Below are positions 2,701 through 34,738 of a stretch of DNA of 34,738 bases, piece after piece. The number at the start of each line of letters is the position of its first letter. Positions within the stretch are counted from its first letter, which is position 1. The notes beneath the pieces are model-generated. The model had not been told where the DNA came from, did not search any database, and was given only the letters and a program-made list of their open reading frames with translations. The stretch is taken from the IMG/VR virus record IMGVR_UViG_3300046812_000824, positions 1-34,738 of that record; one strand, 5' to 3'. The position numbers and the translations under genes were made by a program. Source of the DNA: a virus.

Positions 2701-3325
2701 TCTGCCAAGCCCCGAACACTTCCAACTGCTTATGAAAACCCTTGGGGAAAATGTACTTTGGGTCAGTCGAATCTTCAGCAATCGTTCTCGCCAAATATCC
2801 TACCTTGCAACCATCGCTGAAACGCCTGACGGAAAACAGCACCTTGTCCGTGTAGAGCGACTTCCGACTTGGATTCCGGTACTGTCCGACACCGAAGAGC
2901 TTGAGCGTTTCTTCCATTAAGCCGCGAGCTTTTAGCCAATCACTTTTCACATAAAACTTTTCATATGTTCCAGCAAATGGTTTATTTTCCAGAGCAGCCG
3001 ATTCTTGTTGTACCGCAGGCTCTTTACGAAAGATTTCCTGAGTTGTTTCAGGCGTCGTACTTCCGAGTATCCCGACCGCTTCTTGAAACCCAATCTTCTT
3101 GAGCTTCATTACGAGGTCGATTGACCCGCTTCCATGCTCCCCGCAAGAGAAGCAGTTGAATTTCTCATCCGTGAACGAGAAAGACGTATTGTTTTTCTTG
3201 GGTTGATGGAACGGGCATTTCCCGTAGTGTTCCTTTTTTCCTGGCCGCTTTTTAAAGCCTGTGAAGCCTAAAGAGGCAAGCACAGAGCCGAGCGGGATGC
3301 TTCTGACATCCTGATATTTGTCCAT
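2336..3325 (-). CDS. CHC2 zinc-finger / TOPRIM DNA primase-like protein
   Basis: Strong SD (AGGAGG, six bases before the ATG). The N-terminus has a CHC2-type zinc finger with Cys37, His40, Cys58 and Cys61 (KCPFH ... FNCFSCG). The C-terminal half has a TOPRIM domain with Glu240 in VVES and Asp283/Asp285 in YLPDRD. At 329 residues it lacks a helicase domain, so it would prime replication with a host helicase. It ends inside the nuclease gene on the other strand, overlapping it by 365 bases. The TOPRIM motifs fall in the overlap, so this reading is firmly real there. Confidence 0.88.
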   Translation of the reverse strand: MDKYQDVRSIPLGSVLASLGFTGFKKRPGKKEHYGKCPFHQPKKNNTSFSFTDEKFNCFSCGEHGSGSIDLVMKLKKIGFQEAVGILGSTTPETTQEIFRKEPAVQQESAALENKPFAGTYEKFYVKSDWLKARGLMEETLKLFGVGQYRNPSRKSLYTDKVLFSVRRFSDGCKVGYLARTIAEDSTDPKYIFPKGFHKQLEVFGAWQIKQLVEKAGASNASGECASNPALPLRVGFVVESPLCVMKYWQMGFYAVSCFGAFVSDDQLAVLSQLFRGVVYLPDRDKCGQVAVTIHTLSKRLWVKAPALPAGIDDPENLSREQVLALLKS

Positions 3326-3938: not shown

Positions 3939-4247
3939 ATGGCTCTACTCGTCAAGGAAGTCCGTCGCACACTATTGCCCCTAACTTATGCTGTTTTGAT
4001 TTTTGGCTTAGCATTAGCTGCTTTCGGTTTGGTTCTAGTTCGGCTTGGTCACACAGGAACTGCCGAAATGACCCTGTTCGGTCAATCAATTAAAACAACG
4101 AGTATCGGCATTGCTGCAATTTTCATCGGGGCTGTTGCGGTTGTTCGAATGGTACGAAGAATGTTTGAGTGGGTGGATACAGCAATTCGTCGGGAATCTC
4201 CCGAGCAGCCCGAGCCTCAATGGAAATTACGTCTCAGACGTCGTTAG
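3939..4247 (+). CDS. Small inner-membrane protein with two membrane helices
   Basis: I chose ATG 3939 (102 aa) because AAGAGG lies six bases upstream; a TTG at 3921 is in frame. Two hydrophobic helices (TYAVLIFGLALAAFGLVLV and TTSIGIAAIFIGAVAVV) flank a short loop with EMTLFGQSIKT. This LFGQ-x-IKTTSIGIAAIFIGA arrangement occurs in small bacterial membrane proteins of unknown function. The C-terminus is strongly basic. The 3' end overlaps the convergent gene at 4227 by 21 bases. Confidence 0.65.
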   Translation: MALLVKEVRRTLLPLTYAVLIFGLALAAFGLVLVRLGHTGTAEMTLFGQSIKTTSIGIAAIFIGAVAVVRMVRRMFEWVDTAIRRESPEQPEPQWKLRLRRR

Positions 4248-5610: not shown

Positions 5611-5808
5611 CTACACAGGTATTCTGACATTTCCACGGATTAGTGCAAATGCGTGAAAACCGCATAGATAAGCCAACGGAAAAATAATTGTCCACAGGTA
5701 AACGAAAAAAGCACCAGCTTTTGGCCAGTGCTTCAAGAAATACTGATAATTGGCAATCTGTAGAAGAATAAGGTTTAGGTCAACAACGTTTTGGTCTTCA
5801 GTGTCCAT
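5611..5808 (-). CDS. Small membrane protein (65 aa), first gene of leftward operon
   Basis: Strong SD (GAGGAGG) before ATG. The product has an acidic start (MDTEDQNVVDLN) and two likely membrane segments (AGAFFVYLWTIIFPLAYLCG and the shorter HAFALIR region). The RBS and first codons share 17 identical bases with those of the primase gene, as if one start region had been copied. It heads a run of six leftward genes down to 4864. Function is unknown. Confidence 0.65.
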   Translation of the reverse strand: MDTEDQNVVDLNLILLQIANYQYFLKHWPKAGAFFVYLWTIIFPLAYLCGFHAFALIRGNVRIPV

Positions 5809-21703: not shown

Positions 21704-21864
21704 GACTTTTTACGGAAGGCGTATTGGATTAGCTCGTCAGTCGTTCTGCGTTTTCGCAAAGCCGCCTGCAAAAGTAGCGTTCCAATTACCCCGACAATGA
21801 TTCCTATCAACATACCCTGAACATTACTCCAATCATTAATTCCGTCAAGACGACGGTTATCCAC
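21700..21864 (-). CDS. Small membrane protein (54 aa), antisense in lysis region
   Basis: GTG start at 21864, directly abutting the ATG of the rightward gene at 21865. The product MDNRRLDGINDWSNVQ leads into a membrane helix (GMLIGIIVGVIGTLLLQAA) and a basic tail (LRKRRTTDELIQYAFRKKS). An ATG at 21813 would give 37 residues with the helix at the very start. The layout is that of a short membrane protein; no SD was seen for either start, so the start is uncertain. The end overlaps the stop of 19958-21703 by four bases. Confidence 0.5.
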   Translation of the reverse strand: MDNRRLDGINDWSNVQGMLIGIIVGVIGTLLLQAALRKRRTTDELIQYAFRKKS

Positions 21865-22020
21865 ATGTCAGACCAAGAAATAAAAGATGAACAAGACATG
21901 AAAGAACTGCTCGAAGCCTACCGCAGCTTTAAGAACCTCGGTAAAGGCGCAGTCTGGCTCTTTTCCTTTGTGCTCGTCATTCTCAGCATCCTTCTCGCCA
22001 TTAAAAAACTAAAGCAATGA
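21865..22020 (+). CDS. Holin-like small membrane protein (51 aa)
   Basis: ATG immediately after the divergent GTG. Charged N-terminal half (MSDQEIKDEQDMKELLEAYR) then one membrane helix (AVWLFSFVLVILSILLAI) and a basic end (KKLKQ). This resembles small single-helix phage holins or spanin-like helpers, and it opens the lysis region. The stop overlaps the next start (ATGA). Function is inferred from design and location. Confidence 0.6.
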   Translation: MSDQEIKDEQDMKELLEAYRSFKNLGKGAVWLFSFVLVILSILLAIKKLKQ

Positions 22021-22949
22021 TAGACACACTTTCAAAAGGCGCACTTCCCGACGAACACGACGAACGGGATTTTCACCTTCAGACACTTGGCGCACTTCCA
22101 CCGGCAGACTTTTCAAAAGGCTCCGGTCTTTCACGCCCACCCCTTAAAGACCAGGACTCCTCAGACTCTTGCGTTTCCCACGCATGGAGTTATTACCACT
22201 GGCAACTAAAGGGAAAAGATTTCTCATGCCGCGATTTATTCGCACGAATCGCACAATCCTACGGCGCTGTAATTCGCGACGGCGGTCTTGCCATTGTCAA
22301 AGCAGGACAGGCTACGACCGCCGAGGTTGCAGACCCAAGACCTGAAACTCCCCAGAATATGCGTGATGTCACAGGCGTCACCGCAGACAAGGAATTCTCA
22401 GACAGAGAATTTGATTCGTTCGTAATGGGAGCGGACATTGACTCTGTTGCCTCTGCAATCCGTGCATACAAAGGTGTTGTCTTCGGTGTGCAGGGAACAA
22501 ATGAAGGCTGGCAAAACCTTACTGTCCCAGAACCGCCAAAACCAGATGACATAAATATCGCTGGCAAAGTCTGGGGTCACGCGCTCTATGCCGTGGACTT
22601 CCACATGCACACGAACATAGACGGCTCTCAAGAGAAATGTATTATCGCCGTTACATCCTGGCCGTCAGCCGGCATTACCGAACACCACATCCGCGCTCGG
22701 TATTTCGCAACAGGAATGACCTTTAATCCTTGGACCTTAATTCCAAAATCATTAACTCAAAACAACATGCAACTCATTCGCGATAACGGCACAATCTTTT
22801 TAGTGTCAACAGACAAGACTTCTAAAATTGGAATTGGTAACGCAGACGTTCTCACAGGCTTTTTCCCGACCGAACCGATTACAGACGGCGACACTTCGCA
22901 CATCACACAGGTAGGAACGCTTGCAGACGGCGTTATCCTGCATAAATAG
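22017..22949 (+). CDS. Papain-like (C1-type) cysteine peptidase protein
   Basis: 310 residues. PPLKDQDSSDSCVSHAW gives Gln46 and Cys52 of a papain-like active site, and WGHALYAVDF gives His188. The usual Asn position reads VTSWPS, with Thr in place of Asn, so activity may be altered. No signal peptide is clear. Its place after a holin-like gene suggests lysis or host-envelope action, but it may instead be a virion protein. The fold call is good; the role is open. Confidence 0.65.
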   Translation: MIDTLSKGALPDEHDERDFHLQTLGALPPADFSKGSGLSRPPLKDQDSSDSCVSHAWSYYHWQLKGKDFSCRDLFARIAQSYGAVIRDGGLAIVKAGQATTAEVADPRPETPQNMRDVTGVTADKEFSDREFDSFVMGADIDSVASAIRAYKGVVFGVQGTNEGWQNLTVPEPPKPDDINIAGKVWGHALYAVDFHMHTNIDGSQEKCIIAVTSWPSAGITEHHIRARYFATGMTFNPWTLIPKSLTQNNMQLIRDNGTIFLVSTDKTSKIGIGNADVLTGFFPTEPITDGDTSHITQVGTLADGVILHK

Positions 22950-23665
22950 CGGCTGGGGATAACTCATTTGCTGAGTGTGGAAGGAATTGCTACCTTTAGT
23001 AGGTAAGGATTTAGGGCTGACGTTGGTTTTTATCGCAAAGCCAGCCCCTTATGGACAAAGAATTGCAATTCAGGTGTTACGTTTCCGCTTCAGAGTGGCC
23101 TCGAGACCAGACTCAAAGAAGGAAGTTGGTGTAACATGAGCTTTTTCCCCGGAATGTGTTTCGCAAAACGAATCACCGGCAAAGCTCTCCTCGTTCGGCT
23201 TCCGAGTTCTGGGAAGCAAATAATCATGACAGCGGACGATTAACACTTAAACACTTTCAATTCTCAGACCGCGACGATTCCTATTAGGTTCTACAAAGTA
23301 TTTATTCTGCGCGTTGCCTCCCAAACGCAATCCCTTGTAGGGACAACTGAAGAAGCTTTACGTCGCCAACCTCTAAGGTCCTGTCAGTTGTCTATCCCGC
23401 TTAGGTACAGGACTGTTTCACTAGGAAGCTAGTAAGCTTTTTCACGGTTCACCTCCAAGTCCCGCAGTTCGGGTCAAGGCCATTATCCCGCAGCTCGCAA
23501 ACAAAAACAAACACATTCTTAAGCACTGGAAAAAGACGAGGAGGGCGTTCGTTCTTTCATTCCTGTCTTCCAGACGGGTAAACGCGCGATATTCCCATCG
23601 TTGCCGCGAGCCTAGCTCTTGGTGATTAAGGTGGACAGGCGTGAGAGAGCGAGCGAACCGTTTCT
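22950..23665 (+). ncRNA. Large structured non-coding RNA candidate
   Basis: About 716 bases without a convincing gene, packed with perfect helices. Examples: GAGCTTT/AAAGCTC (23138-23144, 23181-23187) enclosing CCGG/CCGG and TTCG/CGAA; GCTTCC/GGAAGC (23198-23203, 23212-23217); GACAACTG/CAGTTGTC (23342-23349, 23385-23392) with GTCCTGT (23378-23384) pairing ACAGGAC (23407-23413), an H-type pseudoknot; ACGGTTC/GAACCGT (23444-23450, 23655-23661) with GCTCGC/GCGAGC stacked inside; CTGGA-AGAC-AGG/CCT-GTCT-TCCAG with bulges (23526-23541, 23562-23573). Resembles GOLLD/ROOL-style large phage RNAs in size and context, but no class match can be shown. Ends are uncertain. Confidence 0.6.
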
Positions 23666-23710
23666 AAAAGTGCATTACGAGTAATTGTGAATCATTTCAC
23701 CGGCTGGATT

Positions 23711-24160
23711 ATGAAGCTGGAAATCCTCTTGGCTCTTGGACTTTGTTTCTATCAGCCAAAGATTCCTACCCTGCCAGTAATCCACCACGACTTCCGTGTT
23801 TCTGCAATTGCAGAATTCGAACTCAAGCATCACTTCATACCCAATGACAACATCAAAGAAATCATCAAGGCCGCAGATAAGTGTGACCTTAATCCCGCCC
23901 TACTCGTTGCAATTGATTTGCAAGAGTCCAGTGGAGGACGGCACTACATACGAAGCACTAATAACGAATGGGGCTGGGCTTCAGATACCCGTTCCTTTGA
24001 ATCCGAAACAGCCGCTATTGATTACATTTCGGACAAACTCTGCAACGGGCATTATTACAAAGGAAAGCCTCTCACCGGCAAAATCCGAGCCTACAATCCT
24101 TCCCCCACCTACGCCCCAGCAATAATCAAATCAATTAACGAAATAAATTCATATGAATAA
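23711..24160 (+). CDS. Lysozyme-like endolysin with N-terminal hydrophobic segment
   Basis: ATG 23711 chosen (149 aa); an in-frame GTG at 23687 would add eight residues, and neither start has an SD. An N-terminal hydrophobic stretch (ILLALGLCFY) may be a signal-anchor. The core has LLVAIDLQESSGG, with Glu72 the likely catalytic acid, then NNEWGWASDTRSF and RAYNPSPTYA, as in goose-type or SLT-like lysozyme folds. It would cut peptidoglycan for release. It overlaps the next gene by eight bases. Confidence 0.75.
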   Translation: MKLEILLALGLCFYQPKIPTLPVIHHDFRVSAIAEFELKHHFIPNDNIKEIIKAADKCDLNPALLVAIDLQESSGGRHYIRSTNNEWGWASDTRSFESETAAIDYISDKLCNGHYYKGKPLTGKIRAYNPSPTYAPAIIKSINEINSYE

Positions 24161-25251: not shown

Positions 25252-25968
25252 TTGGAAGGTCTCATGGTCCACACTGGCGCAAGCAAATTAGGGCGCCAGG
25301 ACTTGCTTGCACTCCCAACGCCGGAAGGAACAACAACCCACCGGCCCATCCCTCACGCAAAAGTGATTGAAGGTCTTCTTGAATCGCTTTCTTACCGGAA
25401 GTTAAACGTCGTGCGAGACGAGTACGCGGTGACAAAAGACTCAATGCGTATGTTTGGCTTTCTCGAACTTGAAATTGAGGAGTCAGGCGTTCGCATCTCT
25501 TTGGGAGTCCGGAACTCCCACGACAAATCGTTCTCGCTTGGCCTTACTGTCGGCTTCCGAGTCCTGGTATGCGACAACCTTTCCTTCTTTGGCGACTACT
25601 CGCCAGTGATGCGAAAGCACACGAAAAACCTTGTCCTCGATGAAGTTATTGGAGGCGCGCTCGAAAAGATGCAGCGGAATTTCAAGCCGCTCATCCAACA
25701 AGTCGATGTCTGGAAGAATCACAGCCTCTCAGATAACGATGCGCGCTTGCTCATCTACAAGGCGTTTGTCGAAGACGGCGCAGCCCTTCCCAAGCACCTT
25801 TTGAAAGACGTGCATCGCCATTACTTTGAGCCAGAGTACGAAGACTTCAAACCCCGCAACCTGTGGAGTTTGCAAAACGGATTTACTTCCGCAATAAAAA
25901 AGCTGGAACCAGTTCCACAGTTCCAGGCCGCGACGGAAGTTGCCACATATTTCAACAGCCTCAATTAA
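25252..25968 (+). CDS. DUF932-family phage/plasmid protein
   Basis: TTG start at 25252 close behind GGAGGT; an ATG at 25264 is an alternative. 238 residues with the family-like core LGVRNSHDKSFSLGLTVGFR followed by VLVCDNLSFFGD. DUF932 proteins are frequent on plasmids and phages and their biochemical role is unsettled. The gene ends at a strong terminator, closing the operon from 24686. Confidence 0.8.
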   Translation: MEGLMVHTGASKLGRQDLLALPTPEGTTTHRPIPHAKVIEGLLESLSYRKLNVVRDEYAVTKDSMRMFGFLELEIEESGVRISLGVRNSHDKSFSLGLTVGFRVLVCDNLSFFGDYSPVMRKHTKNLVLDEVIGGALEKMQRNFKPLIQQVDVWKNHSLSDNDARLLIYKAFVEDGAALPKHLLKDVHRHYFEPEYEDFKPRNLWSLQNGFTSAIKKLEPVPQFQAATEVATYFNSLN

Positions 25969-27728: not shown

Positions 27729-27915
27729 TTGTGTTTCGTTAGAAAGAAGAGGAATGGCGAGGATTTCGCCGCTATATCGCAATGAGAGCGGCTCTGTCAC
27801 CTCTGCCAGCCGTCCGGCTAACACCTAAGCAGCTTGAGACGATGCTCTTATCTGCCACATTCCTCTGCTAGAGGTGCGATTACGAATACGTCCAGAAACC
27901 CACAATCGCGACCCC

Positions 27916-27948
27916 GAGCAGAAGAGGGGAACAGGGTCGAATCTGCTC
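27916..27948. repeat. Inverted repeat GAGCAGA...TCTGCTC
   Basis: Seven-base perfect arms (27916-27922, 27942-27948) with a 19-base loop in the 230-base gap 27729-27958, which holds no gene I can support. No T tract follows, so a stem-loop of other purpose or an operator is possible. It lies downstream of the possible ssDNA-binding gene. Confidence 0.35.
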
Positions 27949-27958
27949 CCCGCAGATG

Positions 27959-28465
27959 CTAGACAGGCAAGCCGTCTGTAGAAGGTGTTTGTGTTTGTTT
28001 TTGCTGAATCAATTTAGCAACTTCCTCGACAGGCTTTTCTTTAGCCAGGGCGTCGATTGCTTCTTGAGGCACATCAGAATTGGACCGCGCCGCGGTCACC
28101 GTGTACTTAACATCTTTGCTGCCGGCATTCTTCGCATCAATCAGCAAGTCGTAAGGCATTGGGACGGCCGTAAATGCGTAATCAGGTTTGGACTGATATG
28201 CCGCAATAGAGCGCACGATTGTCATTGGCAAGAACGCAAGCCTCAAAGCGTTTTCCGAGAAAACCCACAGCCAGGTCACGAATTTGACATTGGTACTGAC
28301 CTCGCCGGTATCAGGATTTGTATATATATTTTGCAGCGGGAAAGAGGCTGATAAGACCCGGACTCTGTTTTCGCCTTCTTTGAACTTAAACTTATCGGAA
28401 CCCTTTCCGATATTGAACTCTTTTTCGGCGGCCTGTAAATCAGCGCCGAAGTTTACTTCTGTCAT
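27959..28465 (-). CDS. Possible ssDNA-binding protein
   Basis: 168 residues. The N-terminal part KFKFKEGENRVRVLSASFPL then VKFVTWLWVFSENALRLAFL has the layout of phage OB-fold-like SSB proteins. The middle (PMPYDLLIDAKNAGSKDVKY) is a pattern common to a phage family encoded near replication genes, and the C-terminal 35 residues are helical and Gln/Lys-rich. No SD. Assignment by pattern; another DNA-related role is possible. Confidence 0.55.
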   Translation of the reverse strand: MTEVNFGADLQAAEKEFNIGKGSDKFKFKEGENRVRVLSASFPLQNIYTNPDTGEVSTNVKFVTWLWVFSENALRLAFLPMTIVRSIAAYQSKPDYAFTAVPMPYDLLIDAKNAGSKDVKYTVTAARSNSDVPQEAIDALAKEKPVEEVAKLIQQKQTQTPSTDGLPV

Positions 28466-28550: not shown

Positions 28551-28570
28551 CGCACCGGAGTTATCCACAA

Positions 28571-31201: not shown

Positions 31202-31350
31202 AACCACAGCAATTATTTTTCACTGACAAATATATTTTCGCCTTAATGCCAGATGGACGCTTATTTCAGGGCTTCATTCAAAACGTCTTCGGCAGTTTGG
31301 ACGACATTTCCAGACCCGTTTGGCATGAAGTTAAACTCCCAAATGAATGA
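31198..31350 (+). CDS. Small hypothetical protein (50 aa)
   Basis: ATGA overlap. MKPQQLFFTDKYIFALMPDG continues with RLFQGFIQNVFGSLDDISRP, a compact beta-type product. Coupling on both sides supports it. Not recognised. Confidence 0.65.
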   Translation: MKPQQLFFTDKYIFALMPDGRLFQGFIQNVFGSLDDISRPVWHEVKLPNE

Positions 31351-31800
31351 CCCAAGCTCAACCCTTCTTTCCAGCAGACCTTGCCGACGGCAAGGTTTGT
31401 GAAAACAAATTAGTCGAAAAGCTAAGGAGCTTGGGTTTCAATCCCCAAGTTAACCCCTGGCGGCTCTCTTGAACAACTCCGTAAATATGACGTAAAGGCC
31501 ACTCTCCCGCAGACAGGCGTTCAGATTACCTATGAGTGCAAGCGGGACCGGCTCACTCAAGAGACAGGCAATGTGGCAGTCGAGCATAAGGCGATTCTTC
31601 ACTCCCAGGCTGATTTCATCGTTTATCTCATTGACGGACGACCAGACCTCTACCAGATAGGCAGGCAGACCCTCATTGACTTGCTAAATGAAAATTGGAC
31701 TGGGGACAGGCGCTGGCATGTTTTACGAGGCGGCGAGTTCCACGACTGGATGACGCTTATTCCGGCCAGGGAATTTATAGGGATGTGTACTTCACTTTAA
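31347..31800 (+). pseudogene. Frameshifted nuclease-like gene (joined 31347-31453 / 31455-31800)
   Basis: Frame one (ATGA start) reads FFPADLADGKVCENKLVEKL, RSLGFNPQVNP and stops at 31472. The downstream frame is open to 31800 and reads PGGSLEQLRKYDVKAT, QITYECKRDR, KAILHSQADFIVYLIDG. Removing one C from the C4 run at 31454-31457 joins them in register. The joined product of about 150 residues looks like a PD-(D/E)XK or VRR-type nuclease (D-x-K in RKYDVKAT and E-x-K in YECKRD). The cause may be a real mutation, a programmed +1 shift or a sequence error. Confidence 0.65.
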
Positions 31801-33693: not shown

Positions 33694-33961
33694 GCTCGAA
33701 ATGACCGAGGAGCAGTTAAACATGATTGTTTACATGCTCGGAGCCATTGACCTACGAACAGACCCAGACACACTAACGGTCGCAATGGACCTGAGAAAGA
33801 AGCTTAAGAACGCCCTTGAAGTCTTCAAGCCGAAGAATAAGCCTAAGAAAGACCAGTACGGCAAAGTGATGAGCGATGAAGAAAAGGCCACTGCCCAACA
33901 AATTGCCGCACAGTCTCAGGACGCCAACGCAGAGAAATTAGCGCCTCCCCAAAATGCCTAG
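33647..33961 (+). CDS. Hypothetical protein (104 aa)
   Basis: ATG inside the previous gene. Pro/Lys start (PTPPPAKTPAKSVKL), then a helical region (EMTEEQLNMIVYMLGAIDLR, VAMDLRKKLKNALEVF) and a Lys-rich, Gln-rich tail. Convergent with the integrase, overlapping by 24 bases. Not recognised. Confidence 0.6.
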   Translation: MTPTPPPAKTPAKSVKLEMTEEQLNMIVYMLGAIDLRTDPDTLTVAMDLRKKLKNALEVFKPKNKPKKDQYGKVMSDEEKATAQQIAAQSQDANAEKLAPPQNA

Positions 33962-34738
33962 CCGTTGATGCTCTTCAATCAAATCTTGCCCCTGTAAATG
34001 GACGTAACGCATCGTGGTTGTGATGCTGCTATGGCCGAGCATTCGTTGCAGCTTAAACACATTCCCCCCTTGCCGAATGTAATCAGTTGCCATCGTGTGC
34101 CGCGCCGCGTGGACAGTTCGCCGGGGAGCCGGAATGCCGATAATCTTGCAGAGTTTTTTGACATCACGAAGCACATTGTTTCGCATTAATTCCCGACCGT
34201 CACGCGTGCAGAATACAAACCCAGTCCTCTCAGCGCAGAATTTCCAAAGGATTTTCCGCAGCTCTTGAGACATGGGAACAAGCCGGTGTTTATTGCCCTT
34301 TCCTTTGACCGAAATAAGCAGGTTGTCGAAATCTATGCACTCGACCCGTAAACCTATGCATTCTGAGACCCGCAGTCCGCAGTCAAAGATTAAGAGCAAC
34401 AGGACATGAATTCGCTTTTCTTTAGGACAGGGTTTGAAAGCTAGGATTTTCTTTATGCCGGATGTGCCGTAGATTGCGACAGGTTTTTCTTCCTCTTTAA
34501 GTTTGGACATTGAAAGGGAAGACTTGCACCACTTGAGATAGGCGTTCACAGCGCGGATTCGATTGTTGCAGGAAGCAGAGGAAAGACCTTTTTCCCGCAT
34601 CCGCACGACTAAGTCTGTCAGGTCGTCTTGTGTCGGGTTTTCATTACCGAGCCACTTGAAAGATTCGCCATACCAGCCGAGTGTGCGCTCAGAAACATTC
34701 TTGAGAAATTTCCGCTCTTTCAAAAATCGTTCAAACAT
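33938..34738 (-). CDS. Tyrosine recombinase (integrase)
   Basis: 266 residues; the start ATG is the last codon of the window. The SAM-like N-terminal domain (about 1-85) is followed by the catalytic domain with Arg123 (DCGLRVSE), Lys147 (VKGKGNKHR), His210 and Arg213 (VHAARHTMAT), His236 (MLGHSS) and Tyr245 (TTMRYVH), all present. It would integrate the phage at an att site and is why the phage is called temperate. The short length fits a compact phage or XerC-like integrase. Family call is strong; the attachment site was not found. Confidence 0.95.
   Translation of the reverse strand: MFERFLKERKFLKNVSERTLGWYGESFKWLGNENPTQDDLTDLVVRMREKGLSSASCNNRIRAVNAYLKWCKSSLSMSKLKEEEKPVAIYGTSGIKKILAFKPCPKEKRIHVLLLLIFDCGLRVSECIGLRVECIDFDNLLISVKGKGNKHRLVPMSQELRKILWKFCAERTGFVFCTRDGRELMRNNVLRDVKKLCKIIGIPAPRRTVHAARHTMATDYIRQGGNVFKLQRMLGHSSITTTMRYVHLQGQDLIEEHQRLGILGRR

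Follow-up and report, generated by a model that had tools for sequence, protein, structure and literature searches.

Lysis Region of the Phage

The window, as the whole stretch of 34,738 nucleotides analysed here is called, is a 34.7 kb virus record encoding a terminase, a major head protein, and an integrase. The last of these is a tyrosine integrase, which suggests that the phage is probably temperate. In the lysis region, a papain-like peptidase gene is followed by a gap (22950-23686) and by the endolysin gene. The relevant features are:

22950..23520, plus strand: non-coding stretch; no relative found anywhere searched, no folding excess
23342..23413, plus strand: H-type pseudoknot, GACAACTG/CAGTTGTC with GTCCTGT/ACAGGAC, perfect; backed by no relative
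23523..23673, plus strand: the complete conserved motif, a structured RNA read as the leader of the endolysin gene; the unconstrained MFE fold gives P1, P2, and P4; local z -4.35; also in 11 other phages
23687..24160, plus strand: endolysin gene, starting with GTG; the protein has a hydrophobic segment at its N-terminus and a glucosaminidase/lysozyme-like domain; weak PF01832 match
25252-25968: DUF932 gene, adjoining the lysis region; its relatives were searched
33938-34738, minus strand: tyrosine integrase gene (PF00589)

Used as single queries, the papain-like gene led to one relative and the lysozyme gene to none, and the neighbouring DUF932 gene was the route into the phage family. DUF932 relatives were found in virus contigs and in metagenome-assembled genomes, the latter at 38-57% identity and nearly all from Acidobacteriota; judging from these related genes, the host is probably an acidobacterium. 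The closest relative is contig L035 (DUF932 85% identical), whose peptidase-endolysin gap measures only about 280 bases and is devoid of most of window positions 22950-23500. L035 shares with the window an identical 23-base block (window 23540-23562) and a second one, ACGAGTAATTGTGAA, at the endolysin start, start codon included. No similarity of the gap region to annotated phages was detected.

A DnaA-box-like site (AGTTATCCMCA, on either strand) recurs at matching intergenic places. With at most one mismatch, six such sites occur in the window against 0.8 expected, among them 22954-22964, 21855-21865, and 28559-28569. Others are located at 5709, 4331, and 10717 in L137, at 5756, 4539, and 10919 in L138, and at 4090, 4282, and 3613 in L035, L033, and L165, respectively.

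Coding and Folding Signals in the Gap

A preliminary description of this DNA had proposed that the gap contains no convincing gene and is occupied by one structured RNA of about 700 bases. The first statement was borne out, also by the coding-signal check proposed with it: the small ORFs of 22950-23686, including one of 35 codons at 23136, score as wrong frames, i.e., as non-coding, unlike the phage's genes. As to the second, the gap taken whole does fold better than shuffled sequences (z -3.75; opposite strand, z -2.56). However, a local scan with 160-base segments (866 in total) confined the plus-strand folding excess to 23521-23680 (z -4.35, rank 4 among the 866), and in the plus-strand segments of 22961-23520 z stayed near zero (0.0, 0.1, -0.4, 1.0, -0.3, and 0.0). 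A minus-strand piece, 22961-23120 (z -3.19), is the exception in the otherwise chance-like rest of the gap. Perfect stems of at least seven pairs are not in excess, with 7 observed against 7.8 ± 2.8 in shuffled sequences for the gap and 5 against 5.7 ± 2.3 for 22950-23520.

The individual helices named in the preliminary description exist. The pseudoknot is present at 23342-23413, and one of its quality arose in 9 of 1,000 shuffles, in a post-hoc test with no homologue for checking; comparison with shuffled sequences thus yielded a rare pseudoknot together with an ordinary number of helices. Both strands of a proposed twelve-pair helix, CTGGA..AGAC..AGG (23526-23541) and CCTGTCTTCCAG (23562-23573), were located as well, but this helix competes with P1, P2, and P4, which the comparison of phages supports, and the strand matching it is absent from the printed sequence of L035. 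The non-coding gap and the named helices were therefore retained and the single 700-base RNA was not: the approximately 570 bases outside 23521-23680, pseudoknot included, are without comparative support, and 22950-23520 is probably upstream intergenic DNA. A group I intron was also considered, as the pseudoknot topology resembles P3/P7, but its 27-base loop leaves too little room for P4-P6, and none of the Rfam introns scores.

Other folded elements were observed in these phages. Window positions 27830-28010 (minus strand) and 31270-31450 show folding excess as strong as or stronger than that at the leader (z -5.9 and about -4.2, respectively), with long hairpins, partly intergenic. In L034 (5018-5385) and L033 (5335-5670), a second strongly folding non-coding element separates a small zinc-finger-like gene from the one after it; its long helix is made of different letters in the two contigs (GATAAATGGGGGTTATGT/ACATAACACCATTTATC and GATAACGTGCATTATGTT/AACATAATATCGTTATC), and it is possibly another conserved RNA. 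Contig L032, which has no copy of the leader motif, carries very stable non-coding folds (2757-3020 and 3205-3325) between papain-like and CHAP/NlpC-like genes.

A Conserved RNA, Probably a Leader, Directly Upstream of the Endolysin Gene

The folded segment forms the 3′ end of the gap, and 13 bases separate it from the endolysin start codon. Its parts, all on the plus strand, are:

23523..23527, plus strand: P1 5′ strand GCACT; pairs with 23669-23673, probability 0.94-1.0; covaries with L035 ACGGGT/ACCCGT
23528..23534, plus strand: J12 GGAAAAA, 5′ side of the internal loop; AAA invariant (12/12)
23535..23538, plus strand: P2 5′ strand GACG; pairs with 23659-23662, probability about 0.6
23540..23544, plus strand: GGAGG, resembling a Shine-Dalgarno site; flanked by P2 and P4 and mostly unpaired
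23546..23656, plus strand: P4, long imperfect apical hairpin; 5′ arm within the 23-base block identical in L035
23659..23662, plus strand: P2 3′ strand CGTT
23663..23668, plus strand: J21 TCTAAA, the internal-loop strand on the 3′ side, in which CU is invariant
23669..23673, plus strand: P1 3′ strand AGTGC; pairs with 23523-23527
23674..23686, plus strand: 13-base spacer lacking a good Shine-Dalgarno site; the block ACGAGTAATTGTGAA, which includes the start codon, is identical in L035

Eleven other phage contigs (L035, L033, L137, L138, L155, L159, L161, L162, L165, L166, and L144) carry the same architecture immediately before the endolysin. Aligned without gaps, all 12 contain, in this order, P1 with 4-5 pairs, a 7-base strand, the 4-pair P2, an apical part, the partner of P2, a 6-base strand, and the partner of P1. 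The two single strands form a 7 × 6 internal loop in which an invariant AAA stands opposite an invariant CU, and the loop occurs in linked subtypes, J12 starting with GG going together with J21 ACUACA, ACUAAA, or UCUAAA, and the others with CUGU. The apical part varies from 21 to 122 bases. The conserved core spans 52-72 bases in most members and 151 in the window; with this size and its place directly before the endolysin start codon, it looks like an mRNA leader and not like a large free-standing RNA. GGAGG is present in the apical part of 11 of the 12 members, L144 being the exception; the window, L035, and L166 have the extra hairpin P4 on its 3′ side, and L035 has a further hairpin on its 5′ side. 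In the upper stem of P4, window and L035 sequences differ and pairing is kept; a 19-base arm of P4 used as a search pattern matched only L035.

All family-defining features (P1 and P2 around the 7 × 6 loop, AAA opposite CU, and the endolysin directly 3′) are present at 23523-23673, in a copy that is atypical by its J21 variant TCTAAA (UCUAAA) and by one G-U pair in P2. Plain MFE folds contain P1 and P2 in most members, including the window; L155, L137, and L165 fold otherwise. Sequences 5′ of the leader were also seen to recur: L137 (6895-6990) and L138 (7030-7135) have in common a helix-closed element with ends of the GCTAACCC/GGGGGTTAGC type and, in L138, an A-rich linker, and ACAAAAACAAA-like runs also occur 5′ of the leader in the window and in L035.

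The structure of the leader is conserved. In a hand-fitted alignment of the 12 sequences, in which GGAGG stood in for the excised apical parts and which thus leans towards structure, 97.2% of cells are paired and 40 cells show double changes, compared with 11.5 ± 2.5 in shuffles; all nine P1/P2 pairs vary on both sides, and controls with slid partners reached at most 49% paired. An independent check, in which six natural sequences were aligned by MAFFT without structure, gave 90% paired and 14 double changes against 4.9. The search for homologues and covariation proposed at the outset was thus successful for 23523-23673, with relatives in which P1 and P2 covary, and yielded no relatives for 22950-23520.

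A covariance model from six members (R1), run against about 1 Mb of related loci, recovered L161 (E 1.9e-5) and L159 (4e-5), both outside the model, both seen earlier in a descriptor scan, and both matching right before the endolysin. The bare structural descriptor is unselective (29 matches in real loci, 32 after shuffling), its signal being the position of the matches. A sequence-plus-pairing score trained on ten members, with L035 and the window left out, ranked the L035 site first in its own locus (25.5 against 18.7). The window copy stands out neither in this score nor with R1, which fails to align across its 120-base apical insert; its membership rests on synteny with L035, the shared blocks, seven compensatory pairs between the two, and its own MFE fold.

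A scan of the window against Rfam, GOLLD and ROOL included, gave no match at gathering score, and none at E values up to 10 within 22900-23720, in line with the earlier statement that the structured RNA of this lysis region is not assignable to either class. A gathering-level scan of 11 loci with Rfam 15 returned tRNA only, and E-value scans of the L155, L033, and L161 leaders nothing better than E 0.6. The leader had no match in annotated phages; 396 Acidobacteriota genomes contained chance matches only, inside protein-coding frames; whole virus records added no member, giving weak matches in unrelated sequence; and no description of the motif was found in the open-access literature. The motif is here called a new RNA family, a lysis-gene leader with unusual geometry.

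Endolysins, Start Codons, and Promoter Context

The proteins encoded downstream of the leader start with a hydrophobic segment and belong mainly to two families, SLT transglycosylases (L033, L159, L162, L165, L166, and L144) and glucosaminidase-like enzymes (window, L035, L137, L138, and L155); the L161 protein is of a third kind, without Pfam match. For the predicted fold of the window endolysin (pLDDT 79), the best matches were the C. difficile endolysin Ecd09610 and LytB, at an E value of 0.02 (prob 1.00) that makes them supportive only.

In 11 of the 12 members, P1 ends 12-15 bases before the assigned start codon. These 11 codons are GUG (five), UUG (three), and AUA (three), position having in part guided their assignment, most of all for AUA; L161 lacks a start codon at this spacing. 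Other genes of the window mostly start with ATG (13 of 15). A Shine-Dalgarno match of at least 4 bases beside the start is absent in most members, and four have a weak site. In six members (L137, L138, L144, L033, L159, and L161) an out-of-frame AUG was noticed four bases 5′ of the first codon of the endolysin frame, with junctions AUGC|GUG, AUGU|UUG, AUGU|AUA, and AUGC|AAA; the frame it opens codes for a short hydrophobic peptide in L137 (7104-7110) and L138 (7214-7220).

The -10-like hexamers found 5′ of P1 reach a score of 5.7, compared with 2.5 ± 0.5 for random sites. In most members TATAAT-like hexamers lie 3-18 bases 5′ of P1 and not inside it, which suggests that the leader RNA may begin the transcript; the window and L155 have no good -10. 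A particular case is AGGAGTATAATGAAGAAAAGATTA, just 5′ of P1 in L162 (3617-3660) and L166 (3387-3440), which may be taken either as a promoter -10 or as the Shine-Dalgarno site and ATG of a short MKKRL.T frame entering the motif.

Proposed Function and Alternative Explanations

It is likely that 23523-23673 acts in cis, as a structured leader at the 5′ end of the endolysin mRNA. The covarying fold, the fixed short distance to a weak start, and the exchangeable endolysins are best read together as those of a translational leader, and that eleven phages keep the shape with different letters argues that it probably controls when or how strongly the endolysin is made. Judged from the sequences, its most likely role would be to set endolysin translation and hence the timing of lysis. 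With non-AUG starts and, mostly, no good Shine-Dalgarno site beside them, binding of the 30S subunit probably depends on the folded leader. Two routes may be envisaged: the exposed GGAGG could capture the 30S subunit, with the compact fold drawing the start codon close enough, or the conserved internal loop could be the binding site of a factor, from phage or host, that switches initiation on late. By either route the endolysin would be made weakly or late, and lysis would be timed. A more specific version, put forward tentatively, is an IRES-like bacterial initiation element in which the folded RNA would present the Shine-Dalgarno sequence in a loop region, the internal-loop module would position the non-AUG start 12-15 bases past the base, and the endolysin would be translated only from the folded leader.

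An improbable alternative is a small RNA that acts in trans or is processed (an sRNA, a ribozyme, or a ligand-binding RNA) and only happens to sit upstream of the endolysin. The invariant AAA opposite CU and the two linked loop subtypes would suit a binding or catalytic module, but the 12 phages keep nearly the same spacing to the endolysin start, no Rfam ribozyme or riboswitch scores well, and the motif was not found away from endolysins in the 396 genomes of the host phylum.

Less probable again is an element acting on transcription, either a promoter or an attenuator or antitermination leader with which the lysis transcript would begin; the put RNA of phage HK022 is an example of an RNA acting at this level. 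The TATAAT-like hexamers in most members, which would place P1 at the 5′ end of the transcript, fit such an element. Against it, no terminator-like site was found in this region of the window, an RNA acting on polymerase needs no fixed distance to a start codon, and a good -10 is missing in the window and L155.

That all of 22950-23665 is one large ornate RNA, with the conserved hairpin as its 3′ domain, is very unlikely: the overall fold score and the rarity of the pseudoknot speak for it, but the short L035 gap has no counterpart of the rest, and outside 23521-23680 local z values are near zero and stems are not in excess. Hardly credible is a hidden endolysin N-terminus (frame ...LK[S/T]..., MKKRL.TALK in L162 and L166) that a frameshift or bypass would join to the rest. 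In those two, an ATG with an upstream AGGAG does open a short frame into the motif (read by eye), but L165 has no ATG there, the frame stops near the motif in L033, L155, L137, L144, and L159 (also by eye), the helix changes are compensatory, and the window frame scores non-coding; the missing ATG or the stops in other members led to rejection of the shift or bypass reading.

The timing of lysis is a central decision for a phage. A conserved fold in front of two unlike endolysin families suggests that RNA may be the level at which lysis is timed, through a dedicated leader that is retained when the enzyme is exchanged. Relatives of the phage occur in the little-studied Acidobacteriota, and the leader provides a new RNA family for screening.

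Comparison with Known Systems

Like GOLLD and ROOL, the leader is a structured non-coding RNA of phages and prophages. It differs from them in having no Rfam match, in a core of 52-72 bases instead of several hundred, and in abutting the endolysin start codon.

Leaders of phage T4 may be regarded as functional parallels and not as relatives, no homology being claimed. In T4 genes 38 and 25, a fold between a distant Shine-Dalgarno site and the AUG brings them to working distance (PMC3014915). The likeness would be that structure can bring a distant Shine-Dalgarno site and start codon together; in T4, however, the structure lies wholly between the two, whereas in this leader the GGAGG is inside P1 and P2, and P4, in members that have it, is the one helix wholly between, so that the gene 38 arrangement is matched only in part. 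On early transcripts of T4 gene e, the leader folds and sequesters the Shine-Dalgarno site and/or the AUG in a helix, lowering lysozyme synthesis about 100-fold (PMC3014915). Such burial in a conserved helix does not occur in the leader described here, as GGAGG is mostly unpaired and the start codon lies 12-15 bases outside P1; a conserved internal loop is present instead. A gene e type leader also has a late promoter within the 5′ strand of its structure; the -10-like hexamers observed here are 5′ of P1. What the two would have in common is control over when a phage lysis enzyme is made, exerted by RNA structure where its translation begins.
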